Positions 6,183-10,111 of a stretch of 64,000 nt of DNA are shown here, piece by piece. The position numbers and the translations under genes are program-made. Numbering within the stretch: the stretch's first letter is position 1; the number at the start of each line of letters is the position of its first letter. The stretch comes from Streptomyces hyderabadensis (GTDB taxonomy: Bacteria; Actinomycetota; Actinomycetes; Streptomycetales; Streptomycetaceae), in contig NZ_JAIOJZ010000043.1 of the NCBI RefSeq assembly GCF_020404845.1, positions 1 through 64,000 on the forward strand. Reading direction: 5' to 3'. The notes beneath the pieces were generated by a model. That model was not told where the DNA came from. It saw only the letters and a program-made list of their open reading frames with translations, and made no database searches.

Positions 6183-6211
6183 CGCCCGAGCGACGGCCGC
6201 CCTTTTAGAGT
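6183..6211 (+). promoter_or_regulatory. Putative promoter of the Y RNA array
   Basis: A -10-like TAGAGT (6206-6211) lies 7-8 bases before the first base of the Y RNA 1 stem (about 6219), the right distance for transcription to begin on the stem. The -35 region 17 bases upstream is poor. Confidence 0.35.
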
Positions 6212-6212
6212 G

Positions 6213-6368
6213 ATGAACGTCCAGGTGCGAAGGCAGGACCTACTTCCACTCATAATGGGGCGGCCACGGGTTCGAGTCCCGTCACCGGCACAACGCGCCG
6301 GTGTAGCTCAGGGGTTAGAGCGCCTTGTCGGTTCCGCCGACCTGAACTCTGGACACCTGGAACTTCAT
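6213..6368 (+). ncRNA. Y RNA-like ncRNA 1 with circularly permuted tRNA-like module (YrlA type)
   Basis: An outer stem pairs 6220-6227 (TCCAGGTG) with 6354-6361 (CACCTGGA), extended by 6213-6217 with 6364-6368. Inside lies GGTGCGAAGGC (6224-6234), matched by CCGAC (6337-6341); these can form a helix with one bulged G, as in the Ro-binding stem of Y RNAs. The body is a tRNA cut open at the anticodon arm: stem GGCGG (6259-6263), T arm 6266-6282 with loop TTCGAGT, acceptor strand CACCGGC (6283-6289), 7-base loop, acceptor strand GCCGGTG (6297-6303), TA, D arm 6306-6321, 12 bases, then CCGCC (6334-6338). Known: bacterial YrlA RNAs mimic tRNA and bind Rsr/Ro60. The adjacent TROVE gene fits. Exact ends are inferred. 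Confidence 0.8.
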
Positions 6369-6449
6369 GCACCTCCCGGTGCGCAGGCTGCGGCTACTTC
6401 TTCTGCAAAAAGAATCCGCTGCCGCCGCCGACTTGATCTCGGGAGGCGC
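6369..6449 (+). ncRNA. Y RNA-like ncRNA 2, short form without a tRNA module
   Basis: CCTCCCG (6372-6378) pairs with CGGGAGG (6440-6446), plus two outer pairs (6369-6370 with 6448-6449). It has the same core elements as the flanking copies: GGTGCGCAGGC (6378-6388), TACTTC (6395-6400, the same 17-base distance) and CCGAC (6428-6432). In place of the tRNA-like module there is a short hairpin region (TTCT, AGAA and GCGGC/GCCGC arms). It abuts copy 1 with no room for its own promoter, so it may be processed from a longer transcript. Confidence 0.65.
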
Positions 6450-6460
6450 AGCAGAGGGTG

Positions 6461-6602
6461 GGGTGCCCGGTGCGCAGGCAGCGGATACTTCCTTTGATCG
6501 GACGGTTGCGGGTTCGAATCCCGTCATCGACTTCGGGTCGGTGTAGCTCAATCAGGCAGAGCATCCGCATAGTCCCGTCGCCGATTCCGACCTCGGGCAC
6601 CC
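6461..6602 (+). ncRNA. Y RNA-like ncRNA 3 with circularly permuted tRNA-like module (YrlA type)
   Basis: GGGTGCCCG (6461-6469) pairs with CGGGCACCC (6594-6602). The core is GGTGCGCAGGC (6469-6479), TACTTC (6486-6491) and CCGAC (6587-6591). The tRNA-like module has GACGG (6501-6505), T arm 6508-6524 with loop TTCGAAT, acceptor CATCGAC (6525-6531), short loop TTCGG, acceptor GTCGGTG (6537-6543), TA, D arm 6546-6562, 12 bases, then CCGTC (6575-6579). Relative to copy 1, the GGCGG/CCGCC stem becomes GACGG/CCGTC, a compensatory G-C to A-U change that supports the fold. The TROVE start codon follows 47 bases later. Confidence 0.8.
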
Positions 6603-6648
6603 TCCTTCTGCCGCGCCTTCCACCGAACGGAATTCGGGGGAATTCACC

Positions 6649-8250
6649 ATGGCGCGATTCAACACCAAGACCGCGAAGGCGCAGCCCACCTCGCGCGTGA
6701 CCTCCACGGGCCGCGTGCTGCGCACCTACGAGGGCGGCCGGGGCACCGAGCGCGACGCGCGCTCCGAACTGTTCTTGCTCGCGGTGGCCAACTTCGTGTC
6801 CCAGCAGACCTTTTACGAGTCCGGCGCCGCCCGTGACGACCGCTTCACCACGCTGGTGCGCGAACTCGCCCTCAGCGACCCGTCCTGGACGGCCGGCCTG
6901 CTCGGCTGGCTGCGCGGCGAGGGCAACCTGCGCACCGCCTCGATCGTCGGCGCCGCCGAGTACGTCAAGGCCCGCCTCGACTCCGGCGTCACCGAGGGAC
7001 CGTCCAACCGGCAGGTGATCGCCTCCGTTCTGCGGCGGCCCGACGAGCCCGGTGAACTGCTCGCCTACTGGACCGCGACGTACGGCCGCGCCGTGCCGAA
7101 GCCGGTCAAGCGGGGGATCGCCGACGCCGTACGGCGGCTCTACCACGGCAAGTCGCTGCTGAAGTACGACACCGCGTCCAAGGGGTACCGCTTCGGCGAC
7201 ATCCTCAACCTGGTGCACGCGGCGCCGGACCCGGACAAGCCGTGGCAGGGCGAGCTGTTCCAGTACGCCCTCGACCGCCGGCACAACCCGGACACCGCGG
7301 TGCCGCCCCCCTCGAACCACGTCTTGACCGCGCACCGCGAGCTGATGGCGCTGCCCGTCCCCGATCGGCGAGCGGTGGTCACGGCGCCCGACGGTGCCGA
7401 GCGGCTCGCGGCGGCGGGCATCACGTGGGAGATGCTGGCCGGCTGGCTCCAGGGGCCGATGGACAAGGCCGCCTGGGAAGCGGTGATCCCGTCCATGGGA
7501 ACGATGGCATTGCTCCGCAACCTGAGGAACTTCGACGAGGCCGGTGTCTCGGACGAGGTCGCGGCCCGGGTCGCGGCGCGGATCAGCGACCCGGCCGAGG
7601 TGGCGCGCTCGCGGCAGTTCCCGTTCCGCTACCTCGCCGCGTACCGGCACGCGCCGTCGCTGCGCTGGTCGTACCCGCTGGAGCAGGCGCTCGGTGAGTC
7701 GCTGGCCAACGTGCCCGCGCTGGGCGGCCGCACGCTGGTCCTCGTGGACCGGTCGGGTTCGATGTTCTACTCCCGGATGTCGGACCGCTCCGAGCTGACC
7801 CGGGCCGACGCGGCGGCGGTCTTCGGCACGGCGCTGGCGCTGCGGGCGGCCGACGCGGACCTGGTGGAGTTCGGTTCGTCCAGCAACCGGGTGACGTACC
7901 GCAGGGGCGAGTCGGTGCTGAAGATCCTGGACCGCTTCGGCGACCTCGGCGGCACCGACACCACCGAGGCGGTGCGGCGCCACTACCAGGACCACGACCG
8001 GGTGCTGATCGTCACCGACGAGCAGTACGCGTACAGCGGGCACGGCGACCCGACCGAGCAGGTCCCGGCGCACGTGCCCGTGTACACCTGGAACCTCGCC
8101 GGGTACCGGGCGGGTCACGGTCCGTCGGGCCGGGCGAACCGGCACACCTTCGGCGGGCTCTCCGACGCGGCGTTCCGGATGGTTCCGCTGCTGGAGGCGG
8201 GCCGGGACGCCGAGTGGCCCTGGGACGCCCGGGACGAGCACGCGCGGTAG
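6649..8250 (+). CDS. rsr: TROVE domain RNA-binding protein, Ro60 ortholog (Rsr)
   Basis: The 533-residue protein is colinear with Ro60/Rsr. A HEAT-like TROVE ring covers about 15-350 (ELFLLAVANFVSQQTFYE, LLGWLRGEGNLRTASIV, SVLRRPDEPGELLAYW). A C-terminal von Willebrand A domain has the MIDAS motif DRSGS (near 366-371), a downstream TDTTE and IVTDEQ. Known: Ro proteins bind misfolded RNAs in the ring and Y RNAs on its outer face, and bacterial Rsr can be tethered by a Y RNA to exoribonucleases such as PNPase. Three Y-RNA-like genes lie directly upstream on the same strand. The ATG at 6649 follows a GGGGGAATT ribosome binding site. The identity is very likely. Confidence 0.92.
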   Translation: MARFNTKTAKAQPTSRVTSTGRVLRTYEGGRGTERDARSELFLLAVANFVSQQTFYESGAARDDRFTTLVRELALSDPSWTAGLLGWLRGEGNLRTASIVGAAEYVKARLDSGVTEGPSNRQVIASVLRRPDEPGELLAYWTATYGRAVPKPVKRGIADAVRRLYHGKSLLKYDTASKGYRFGDILNLVHAAPDPDKPWQGELFQYALDRRHNPDTAVPPPSNHVLTAHRELMALPVPDRRAVVTAPDGAERLAAAGITWEMLAGWLQGPMDKAAWEAVIPSMGTMALLRNLRNFDEAGVSDEVAARVAARISDPAEVARSRQFPFRYLAAYRHAPSLRWSYPLEQALGESLANVPALGGRTLVLVDRSGSMFYSRMSDRSELTRADAAAVFGTALALRAADADLVEFGSSSNRVTYRRGESVLKILDRFGDLGGTDTTEAVRRHYQDHDRVLIVTDEQYAYSGHGDPTEQVPAHVPVYTWNLAGYRAGHGPSGRANRHTFGGLSDAAFRMVPLLEAGRDAEWPWDARDEHAR

Positions 8251-8287
8251 GGTGCCCGGAAGGTTGCCCGCTGTGCAGGGAGGGGCT

Positions 8288-8854
8288 GTGGCGCAGGTCA
8301 GGCCCATGCGGGCGGATGCCCGGCGGAACCGTGAGCGGTTGCTGGCGGTGGCGGCGGATGCGTTCGCCGAGCACGGTGAGGGCGCCTCGCTGGACGACAT
8401 CGCCCGGCGGGCCGGCGTCGGCGTCGGCACCCTCTACCGGCACTTCCCGACGCGGCAGGCGCTGCTGGAGGCCGCCTACCTGGAGCGCCTGGAGGCGATC
8501 GCGGCCCGCGCCGACGTGATCGCCGCCGCGAAGCCGCCGGGCGCGGCGCTGCTGGCGTGGCTCGACGAGCTGGCCGTCGGGATGCTCCGGGTGCGCGGGC
8601 TCAAGGCGCTGCTCGGGACGGCCGTCACCGGCGGCGGACCCGCGTGCGGCGACTGTGTGCGCGGGGCGGCCACCCGGCTGGTGCGGGCCGCGCAGGAGGC
8701 CGGTGCGCTGCGGCGGGACGTCGAGCCGGTCGAGGTGCTGCGGCTGGTGCACGGGATGGTGACGGCGGCCGAGGCGGCCGGCGAGGTGGACGGGGCGGCC
8801 GTGCGGCGGTATCTGGCGCTGCTCATGGAGGGACTTGGACGGGGACAGGGCTGA
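8288..8854 (+). CDS. TetR family transcriptional regulator
   Basis: The 188-residue repressor-type protein has a TetR N-terminal helix-turn-helix at about 20-60 (FAEHGEGASLDDIARRAGVG, then GTLYRHFPTRQALLEAAY). The C-terminal ligand domain is alpha-helical. I chose the GTG at 8288 because GGGAGGGG sits 4-11 bases upstream. The gene begins 37 bases after rsr, so it could be cotranscribed with it, but the ligand and targets are unknown. A strong hairpin overlaps its 3' end. Confidence 0.82.
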   Translation: MAQVRPMRADARRNRERLLAVAADAFAEHGEGASLDDIARRAGVGVGTLYRHFPTRQALLEAAYLERLEAIAARADVIAAAKPPGAALLAWLDELAVGMLRVRGLKALLGTAVTGGGPACGDCVRGAATRLVRAAQEAGALRRDVEPVEVLRLVHGMVTAAEAAGEVDGAAVRRYLALLMEGLGRGQG

Positions 8855-8893: not shown

Positions 8894-10111
8894 TTACAGC
8901 GCCTGCGCGGCCGGCTTCACCATGCCGCGGACCGTGCGGGACTTGACGAAGTCGCCCATGGCGGTCATCTCCCACTCGCCGGAGTACTGGCGGATCAGCT
9001 TCGCCATCATCACGCCGGTCTGCGGCTCGGCGCTGGTGAGGTCGAAGCGGACCAGCTCCTCGCCGGTGGCGGCGTCCAGGAGGCGGCAGTAGGCCTTGGC
9101 GACCTCGGTGAACTTCTGGCCCGAGAACGAGTTCACCGTGAAGACCAGGCCGGTGACCTCCTGGGGCAGCCGGCCGAGGTCGACGACGATCACCTCGTCG
9201 TCGCCGCCGCCCTCACCGGTCAGGTTGTCGCCGGAGTGCTTGATCGCGCCGTTGACGATCGAGAGCTTGCCGAAGTAGCAGCTGTCGATGTGGTTGCGCT
9301 GCGGGCCGTAGGCGATGACGGACGCGTCCAGGTCGATGTCCTTGCCGCGGTACGCGGGCTCCCAGCCGAGGCCCATCTTGACCTGGGAGAGCACCGGCCG
9401 GCCGCCCTTGACGAGGGACACCGTCTGGTTCTTCTGGAGGCTGACCCGGCCCTTGTCGAGGTTGATCTTGCCGGTGCCCGGGGCGGGGGCCGGCGGCGCG
9501 GCGGGCGGTGCGGCCGGCATCGTGGGCGCGGCGGCGGGCGGGGGCGGGGGCGTGGCCGCGTGGGACCGCTGCGGGGCCGCCGGCTGGGCCGGGGGAGCGG
9601 CCGGCGCGGGCTCCTCCACCGTGACGCCGAAGTCCGTCGCGATGCCGGCCAGGCCGTTGGCGTAGCCCTGGCCGACCGCGCGGGCCTTCCAGGCGCCGTT
9701 GCGCAGGTAGACCTCGACGATCACCAGGGCGGTCTCGGTGCCGAGCTGCGGAGGCGTGAAGCTGGCGAGGACGGAGTTGTCGTCCGCGTTGCGGATGGTG
9801 GCGGTCGGCTCGATGCCCTGGAAGGTCTGTCCGGCGGCGTCCGGGCTGGCGGTGACGACGATCTTCTCGATGCCCGGCGGGACGGCGGCGGTGTCCACCA
9901 CGATCGCGTCCGGGGCGGTGCCGCCGCCGGAGCGGTAGGTCACGCCCTGGCCGGTGGGCTGGTTGTAGAAGATGAAGTCGTCGTCGGAGCGCACCTTGCC
10001 GTCGGCGGTGAGCAGCAGGCCCGATACGTCGAGCCGCACGGGCGCGGCGACGTCCACCGTCACGCGGGCGGCGGAGAGGGGGATGTTCGAGCCGGGGGTC
10101 ATAGCTGTCAT
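8894..10111 (-). CDS. TerD family protein with two TerD domains
   Basis: The 405-residue cytoplasmic protein has two TerD domains, about 1-185 (VTVDVAAPVRLDVSGLLL, SDDDFIFYNQP, ALVIVEVYLRNGAWKARAVG) and about 225-405 (KINLDKGRVSLQKNQTVSL, LDASVIAY, LTGEGGGDDEVIVVDL, GEWEMTAMGDFVKSRT). A 40-residue Ala/Pro linker joins them. Acidic clusters in both match the Ca-binding sites of TerD. Known: TerD proteins belong to tellurite and stress membrane-associated systems, and Streptomyces carries many paralogs affecting development. No other ter gene is nearby. The start could be either of two ATGs, codons 1 or 4. Confidence 0.85.
   Translation of the reverse strand: MTAMTPGSNIPLSAARVTVDVAAPVRLDVSGLLLTADGKVRSDDDFIFYNQPTGQGVTYRSGGGTAPDAIVVDTAAVPPGIEKIVVTASPDAAGQTFQGIEPTATIRNADDNSVLASFTPPQLGTETALVIVEVYLRNGAWKARAVGQGYANGLAGIATDFGVTVEEPAPAAPPAQPAAPQRSHAATPPPPPAAAPTMPAAPPAAPPAPAPGTGKINLDKGRVSLQKNQTVSLVKGGRPVLSQVKMGLGWEPAYRGKDIDLDASVIAYGPQRNHIDSCYFGKLSIVNGAIKHSGDNLTGEGGGDDEVIVVDLGRLPQEVTGLVFTVNSFSGQKFTEVAKAYCRLLDAATGEELVRFDLTSAEPQTGVMMAKLIRQYSGEWEMTAMGDFVKSRTVRGMVKPAAQAL

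Follow-up and report, generated by a model that had tools for sequence, protein, structure and literature searches.

A predicted array of three Y RNAs with tRNA-like parts upstream of the Ro60 orthologue rsr in Streptomyces

Directly upstream of a gene for a Ro60-like protein in Streptomyces hyderabadensis lie three consecutive elements, each closed by a stem, which raise the question of what kind of RNAs they specify and what their tRNA-like parts might do. The window analysed here is a stretch of 64,000 nucleotides (contig NZ_JAIOJZ010000043.1, assembly GCF_020404845.1, positions 1 to 64,000 of the forward strand). A 2014 survey is reported to have found Y RNAs in more than 250 species, every one of which had a tRNA-like Y RNA or several. 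A preliminary description of the window had read the array as Y-RNA-like, and the analyses below support that reading; judged from sequence and context, the three elements are actinobacterial Y RNAs.

When the window sequence was re-read, the three closing-stem elements were found ahead of the TROVE/Rsr gene (Table 1), and the blocks said to be common to them were at the stated positions. The shared box GGTGCGNAGGC starts at 6224, 6378 and 6469, and TACTTC starts at 6241, 6395 and 6486, in each copy 17 nt after the start of the box. CCGAC likewise starts at 6337, 6428 and 6587, but the homologous position in element 3 reads CCGAT (6581), so that the third CCGAC is partly a coincidence. The closing stems differ in sequence yet pair (GTCCAG/CTGGAC, CCTCCCG/CGGGAGG and GGTGCCCG/CGGGCACC). 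The elements thus have two features of bacterial Y RNAs in the broad sense, a gene adjoining an rsr/TROVE gene and a conserved lower stem formed by the 5' and 3' ends. The product of the adjoining gene matches Pfam TROVE (9.4e-14) and solved TROVE proteins (6.5e-30), in agreement with its assignment as a Ro60 orthologue. The remark that one element is of a different type was also correct: a tRNA-like core is present in elements 1 and 3 and absent from element 2. Scores under our model R1 were 140.2 bits for element 1 (by construction), 46.5 for element 2 and 98.9 for element 3. Over the whole window, Rfam gave no match at gathering level and a tRNA gene search found none. A coding reading of the region was rejected: among mechanical open reading frames of at least 100 aa, only an antisense one (6394-8430) reaches into it. 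A Pfam scan of seven proteins of the neighbourhood identified phoX-like, rsr, tetR-like and terD-like genes and three proteins without a match; the TerD-domain gene lies at 8894-10111 on the opposite strand, two genes downstream of rsr.

Table 1. Positions of features at the rsr locus, in window coordinates.
Feature	Position	Strand	Evidence or remark
-10-like box TAGAGT	6206-6211	+	7 nt upstream of first closing stem
Element 1, predicted Y RNA with complete circularly permuted tRNA-like domain	6219-6354	+	closing stem, covariation, Rfam YrlA, R1
Element 1, anticodon arm TTCCA-CTCATAA-TGGGG (5-bp stem, 7-nt loop CUCAUAA)	6244-6260	+	hairpin counts, pairing
Element 1, T arm ACGGG-TTCGAGT-CCCGT	6266-6282	+	covariation helix 4
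Element 1, acceptor stem CACCGGC/GCCGGTG (7 bp, closed by 7-nt loop)	6283-6303	+	covariation helix 5
Element 1, D arm GCTC-AGGGGTTA-GAGC	6306-6321	+	covariation helix 6
Element 2, predicted short Y RNA lacking T, acceptor and D arms	6370-6446	+	fold z-score, covariation, R1
Element 2, anticodon-arm-like hairpin TTCTT-CTGCAAA-AAGAA	6398-6414	+	counts in 115 short elements
Element 3, predicted YrlA-like Y RNA with class-I tRNA core	6464-6599	+	Rfam YrlA, R1, consensus fold of 41 relatives
Element 3, T arm	6508-6524	+	YrlA alignment
Element 3, acceptor stem CATCGAC/GTCGGTG (7 bp, closed)	6525-6543	+	position only
Element 3, D arm GCTC..GAGC	6546-6562	+	position only
Palindrome GAATTCGGGGGAATTC (16 bases) around the rsr ribosome-binding site	6630-6645	+	invariant in 14 aligned Streptomyces loci
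rsr, TROVE/Ro60 orthologue, 533 aa	6649-8250	+	Pfam TROVE; TROVE proteins PDB 9l5y/9kop

Three such elements in tandem had been thought unusual, a view that did not survive comparison with other loci. We built a finder from the anatomy of the elements (X-[GA]TGCG ... T-rc(X), followed by TACTTC in which one mismatch was allowed) and applied it to the 700 nt upstream of rsr, where it returned exactly three matches in the window. It was run on 135 Rsr upstream regions, namely the window, 80 named Streptomyces loci, 51 loci from elsewhere in the family or class and three more stretches, with five fetched stretches that had no rsr match excluded. At least one element was present in 134 of the 135, with 0/135 on the reverse strand and 1/135 in shuffled regions. 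One region held none, 12 held one, 59 two, 56 three, five four and two five, in a sample weighted towards close relatives (the window and its 80 best Streptomyces matches make up 81 of the 135). Tandem Y RNA arrays, mostly of two or three elements, are therefore common, and the shared blocks, rather than being lost in relatives, are kept across Streptomyces and in other actinobacterial families. Loci L123-L126, from another actinobacterial family, hold arrays of four to five elements, some of which (L124) have D arms that we take to be tRNA-Gln-like (TGGTGTAA..GGCAGCA).

A promoter-like -10 box precedes only the first element, and in nearly all loci the later elements lack one. Of 134 loci, 96 have a TANNNT that ends 4-14 nt upstream of the first element (at 7 nt in 71), and none has one in a control window 60 nt farther upstream; the box was found before element 2 in 1/122 loci and before element 3 in 1/63. 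In the window, transcription probably starts at about 6217-6219. At the other end of the array, the palindrome GAATTCGGGGGAATTC could hide the start of rsr.

Element 1 is built, from outside to inside, of the closing stem, the box GTGCGNA and a helix of GGC/GCC with GGACC/GGTTC; above this lower helix come an unpaired UAC (of TACTTC), a five-pair hairpin, the T arm, the acceptor stem and the D arm. This order, with the hairpin as anticodon arm, is that of a circularly permuted tRNA. Covariation was assessed in 20 copies (18 diverse picks from 76, plus two like elements of other families). Pairing is kept while sequence drifts, as the preliminary description had proposed: 98.9% of 696 cells are paired and 18 of 35 pairs carry changes on both sides, none of 500 shuffles reached any of five measures, and slid versions pair in 32-51%. 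Two-sided changes affect 6/7 pairs of the acceptor stem (helix 5); the D arm has no covariation support, because helix 6 never varies in this set. The lower stem (helix 1) is paired in 100% of cells, and its evidence lies in the two-sided changes (3/6 pairs in element 1, 4/6 in element 2), since the finder that chose the rows already requires such a stem. Folding energy by itself is no strong evidence: z-scores were -0.90 for element 1, -2.98 for element 2 (on 6368-6446) and -1.49 for element 3, elements 1 and 3 thus folding no better than many shuffles. For element 1 alone, the best ViennaRNA fold (-54.0 kcal/mol) lies 7.9 kcal/mol below the proposed one (-46.1); it retains the anticodon hairpin, whose pairs have ensemble probabilities of only 0.25-0.36.

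When element 1 was re-ordered into the linear arrangement of a tRNA, ARAGORN called a tRNA in 73 of 75 tested copies (of 76, the one left out having no hairpin), compared with 0/75 shuffled versions and 4 calls on 76 copies in natural order. The two failures, L095 and L116, both have irregular hairpins. The isotypes called were 32 Met, 24 Ile, 6 Lys, 4 Asn, 3 Ser, 2 Thr, 1 Phe and 1 Gly. Element 1 is not a tRNA gene recognised as such in its natural order, nor does it have the isotype-consistent body and CCA end of a permuted tRNA gene: in the window sequence no CCA follows the acceptor strand, and in the 18 of 75 copies listed, the closest own-genome tRNA is 71-77% identical and of an isotype that does not track the element-1 anticodon.

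The anticodon arm of element 1 follows tRNA rules closely. A hairpin with a 7-nt loop sits in the TACTTC box in 75 of 76 copies, and in 67 of the 76 the loop is exactly the anticodon loop of a tRNA of the same genome (53 distinct tRNA sequences were compared). Hairpins of at least four pairs number 74/76 (16.5 expected from shuffles), of which 66 have Y32-U33-R37 (0.81 expected) and 66 an exact tRNA loop (0.03 expected). Among 137 other tRNA-like elements, mostly element 3, counts are low, with 56 hairpins of at least four pairs (36.9 expected), 14 with Y32-U33-R37 (2.9) and eight with an exact tRNA loop (0.11), so that the arm belongs chiefly to elements 1 and 2. Part of the agreement has a simple source. 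CTNNTAA loops make up 64 of 75 element-1 hairpins, and 10 of the 16 possible ones occur among the tRNAs of this genome; matches to real tRNA loops therefore follow largely from the grammar of the loop, and these counts weaken the case for any further correspondence between element-1 loops and real anticodons.

To compare arms more widely, 24 chosen examples (23 distinct) were taken from arrays and stand-alone copies as well as from a phage and a plasmid, omitting L094, L238 and L240, whose arms repeat others. Stems include TTCCA/TGGGG, TTCCG/CGGGG, TTCTC/GAGAG, TTCGC/GCGGG, TTCGT/ACGGG and TTCGA/TCGAG; 96.5% of cells are paired and 23 show two-sided changes, compared with 7.0 in shuffles (reached in 0 of 500). 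The pair-count and type-count measures stay within shuffle range (reached in 481 and 374 of 500), because only two of the five pairs vary on both sides. On a tree of 68 Streptomyces copies, C32 changed once, U33 once, U36 twice, A38 once and A37 seven times, as against 17 changes at N34 and 11 at N35. Other loop positions of element 1 changed equally fast (19, 17 and 16 changes), so the turnover of the triplet may be drift. The anticodon as a whole changed at least 25 times while the body stayed alike, and 300 shuffles gave a mean of 30.1 and a minimum of 25; it thus carries almost no phylogenetic signal.

Element 2 consists only of the putative Ro-binding helix, with the same lower helix as element 1, and the anticodon-arm-like hairpin. 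Of 115 short elements, 99 form a hairpin with a 7-nt loop and 3 bp or more at this place; 80 have Y32 U33 R37, and in 38 the loop is identical to that of a tRNA, for example CTGCAAA (Cys) or CTTCCAA (Gly). With a minimum of four pairs, 72 of the 115 have such a hairpin (10.2 expected). In 16 rows chosen from 33 for covariation analysis, 90.8% of cells are paired and 9/18 pairs show two-sided changes; the hairpin is hard to align and has no two-sided change there. In nine of 81 loci (L038, L039, L051, L063, L065, L066, L068, L072 and L073), element 2 is reduced to a closing stem of 30-35 nt that keeps CTCGGGAGG and is either a remnant or a minimal form; none was found in three loci.

Element 3 has no hairpin of this kind and instead forms an anticodon stem from its flanks (6499-6502 with 6564-6567), as seen in the Rfam alignment and in a consensus fold of 41 relatives. 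A long element 3 is present in 77 of 81 loci, with a class-I D arm in 42 and a D arm of the GTGGCGGAA type, which by tRNA consensus we take to be tRNA-Leu-like, in 35. In a wider set of 39 class-II copies, 25 have a long variable region, and all 25 form a hairpin of at least three pairs there, with 18 different arms (raw counts without a shuffle control). Mapped onto an rsr gene tree of 93 Streptomyces, the class of element 3 (88 rows) changed at least 18 times (shuffled mean 29.0) and the presence of element 1 changed 13 times (shuffled mean 22.2), figures that are upper readings because the tree was built quickly and its weak branches were kept. Between rsr genes 94-97% identical, class differs in 7/29 pairs and the element-1 anticodon in 9/18; at 97% identity or more, the respective figures are 0/4 and 2/5.

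How far this array resembles known systems was judged by comparison with YrlA (Rfam RF02553, Salmonella), which is circularly permuted relative to tRNA (PMC11472068) and modified by DusA and TruB (PMC8394870); papers given by PMC number are cited for the parts consulted. A search with a YrlA model had been proposed as a check: element 3 matched with 45.9 bits (E 9e-9, on 6478-6587) and element 1, over part of its length, with 34.3 bits (E 2e-5, on 6259-6324), both short of the gathering score of 69, and element 2 had no Y RNA match in Rfam. At nine further loci, the same model gave six matches of 37.6-47.1 bits in five and none in the other four (E 0.001). The likenesses are a lower Rsr-binding stem, the T-acceptor-D order with a closed acceptor (present in elements 1 and 3, absent from element 2) and a place adjoining rsr. 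Element 3 also pairs its core flanks into an anticodon stem, as in the YrlA consensus, whereas element 1 closes its anticodon arm as a local hairpin. Unlike YrlA, element 2 is without a tRNA core, and element 3 of many relatives resembles class-II tRNA-Leu.

Other comparisons are more distant. The Deinococcus radiodurans Y RNA, likewise an Rsr partner, tethers PNPase and has two hairpins, one of them T-arm-like; it is not described as a full tRNA mimic in the part of that source consulted, unlike element 1 (PMC6181284). In the Salmonella rsr-yrlBA-rtcBA operon Y RNAs also lie by rsr (PMC7790460), but there are two of them, as against three here, and a scan of seven neighbouring proteins showed no rtcBA. 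The permuted tRNA genes known from algae and an archaeon share with element 1 a 3' half placed ahead of the 5' half; the break in element 1 falls between D arm and anticodon arm, its acceptor is closed by a short loop, and nothing found for it points to maturation. Bacterial Y RNAs near rsr, their tRNA-like domain and phage candidates were already known (PMC8394870, PMC7790460, PMC11472068, PMC12282133). A literature search, with primary papers outside its scope, returned no description of the Streptomyces array, of anticodon arms in Y RNAs or of phage Ro-like proteins with Y RNAs. The anticodon arms, the arm-only element and the class-II cores with their repeated exchange thus appear to be new, as do the stand-alone family and the phage tRNA annotations described below.

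The link between these RNAs and Rsr holds across genomes. Among the matches listed for 150 Streptomyces genomes, full-length matches to the element-1 model occur in 75, all of which have rsr or, in G464, its remnants. A strong rsr match is found in 81 genomes, seven of which (G383, G386, G400, G402, G412, G481 and G485) are without a full-length match among those listed; these seven have a divergent Rsr type, 57-70% identical. Of 296 genomes of the class, 37 have rsr, and all 34 with full-length matches of at least 62 bits belong to these; genomes lacking rsr gave two weak full-length matches, of 54 and 50 bits. Partial matches (model positions 26-104, about 55-62 bits), seen in many Streptomyces, some without rsr, were rejected as extra Y RNAs because the two examined are tandem tRNA-Asn genes. 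In the source genome, full-length matches above 40 bits are the three window elements only.

In rsr-bearing genomes, 12 Y RNA loci (L234-L245) lie away from rsr, on other contigs or hundreds of kilobases off. They comprise 11 single elements and one short/long pair, 13 elements in all. When re-ordered, 12/12 long copies were called tRNA and none of 72 shuffled versions was; isotypes were Glu (3), Asp (2) and one each of Tyr, Pro, Lys, Met, Cys, Ser and Leu. Their arms have 5 bp and a 7-nt loop, nine long elements starting TTCTC, TTCGC or TTCGT and two TTCCA; for L244 the script chose another register, and the arm also fits TTCGC-CTCTCAA-GCGGG. By eye and without a control, a GC-rich terminator-like hairpin follows the copies and a -10-like box precedes the single ones. 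Stand-alone copies with such a hairpin argue for RNAs acting in trans, and suggest RNA genes that are not only leaders. Ten neighbouring proteins from five of the 12 loci gave no partner common to all; L240 and L242 share CMD and BacA genes. Two extra hits of the loose finder, in L239 and L244, were judged spurious; a stricter box did not return them.

Rsr relatives were also found in 87 phage records, and we read the surroundings in seven (four Streptomyces, two Gordonia and one Arthrobacter phage). A tRNA cluster encloses the gene in the four Streptomyces phages and the Arthrobacter phage, but not in the two Gordonia phages. All seven records, as well as a Rhodococcus plasmid, have full-length model matches with E 1e-5 or better, those of the Arthrobacter phage sitting just behind rsr. 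Phage copies and stand-alone copies are built on the same plan as the array elements. Three deposited tRNA features fall within Y elements, tRNA-Ser(gct) in Alone3 (L253:2274-2347), tRNA-Arg(cct) in GiJojo (L255:2269-2343) and tRNA-Arg(tct) in VanLee (L256:2204-2275), and are probably misannotated Y RNAs. At E 0.001 the Rfam tRNA model did not match those of Alone3 and VanLee; it matched the other 10 of the 11 annotated tRNAs in the Alone3 stretch and 12/12 in the BRock stretch.

What these RNAs might do has to be weighed against an array, a paired structure, tRNA-like cores and a conserved neighbourhood that are read from the sequence. We think it rather likely that they are Rsr-bound tRNA surrogates that dock a tRNA-handling protein. 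A single transcription unit would give one precursor from which three Y RNAs are cut out, and the Rsr ring protein would bind the conserved lower helix (closing stem, GGTGCGNAGGC, TACTTC and GCCGA..CTC), a role assigned because of its place and of published Y RNAs (PMC4726728, PMC6181284). The top halves would serve as the surrogates: element 1 would offer a complete tRNA body, its acceptor closed and its anticodon arm included, element 2 the arm alone and element 3 a tRNA core without an anticodon loop. On Rsr they would dock PNPase, as in D. radiodurans, or a modification or processing enzyme, giving several Rsr complexes that differ in partner choice. We rank such a tether first because a published precedent exists, although a pure tether has no need of an anticodon loop. 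The rival reading is that of decoys, in which tRNA bodies and anticodon arms would be offered to tRNA-cutting nucleases or toxins and Rsr would hold, protect or dispose of the bait. We entertain this tentatively and rank it second, because it agrees with the arms, with an anticodon that turns over fast and with the phage tRNA clusters. The grammar of the arm is kept in element 1 and in the stand-alone copies, N34 and N35 change far more often than C32, U33, U36 and A38, the anticodon is almost devoid of phylogenetic signal, Streptomyces phages have Rsr together with Y RNAs within their tRNA clusters, and a role as competitive inhibitor has been suggested for YrlA (PMC7790460). Free drift would explain the triplet too, however, given the equally fast positions elsewhere in the loop; no nuclease has been linked to the array, and in the part of PMC7790460 consulted fragments of Salmonella YrlA are reported not to have been detected, so that it was not a substrate of that nuclease.

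The remaining readings fare worse. That the elements form a cis-acting leader, through which Rsr binds its own transcript and rsr is regulated, would fit their place directly upstream on the same strand, the rarity of -10-like boxes between them and the conserved palindrome over the ribosome-binding site; the 12 loci away from rsr, with their terminator-like hairpins (by eye), make it improbable. It is very improbable that element 1 is a permuted tRNA gene maturing into a working tRNA, even with all four arms present and the ARAGORN calls after re-ordering, given the 71-77% identity to own-genome tRNAs in the copies listed, the isotypes that do not follow the anticodon, the missing CCA in the window and an anticodon that turns over on a body that stays similar; maturation of the known permuted genes, moreover, involves a BHB motif and a circular intermediate (PMC3978253). 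Decay of former tRNA genes, or repeats clustered by chance, would account for tRNA-like cores, but covariation in elements and arms and conservation of the array led us to reject them as having a negligible chance of being right.

Beyond the docking of a tRNA-handling protein, one may speculate, with a good deal of doubt, that actinobacteria and their phages use Rsr-bound tRNA surrogates with exchangeable parts, namely fast-turnover anticodon triplets and cores that are replaced across tRNA classes I and II. Such surrogates would serve as bait for tRNA-cutting enzymes, or as sensors of them, when cells, phages and toxins come into conflict. If so, phage tRNA clusters would carry Rsr and Y RNAs for the same reason as they carry tRNAs. 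Whatever their role, the full anticodon arm, the arm alone and the class-II core are natural domain swaps within one type of locus in tractable Streptomyces, with which tether and decoy can be compared directly and each part can be matched to the tRNA enzymes that recognise it; the role of the tRNA-like part of bacterial Y RNAs is a question that this design makes easier to test. The phage copies link Rsr and Y RNAs to phage tRNA clusters and suggest that Y RNAs are present among the tRNA genes deposited for phages. In the same clusters we also observed matches to the manA RNA family below its cut-off of 55.2, at L252:4579-4742 (49.7 bits) and L253:4467-4699 (47.8 bits).
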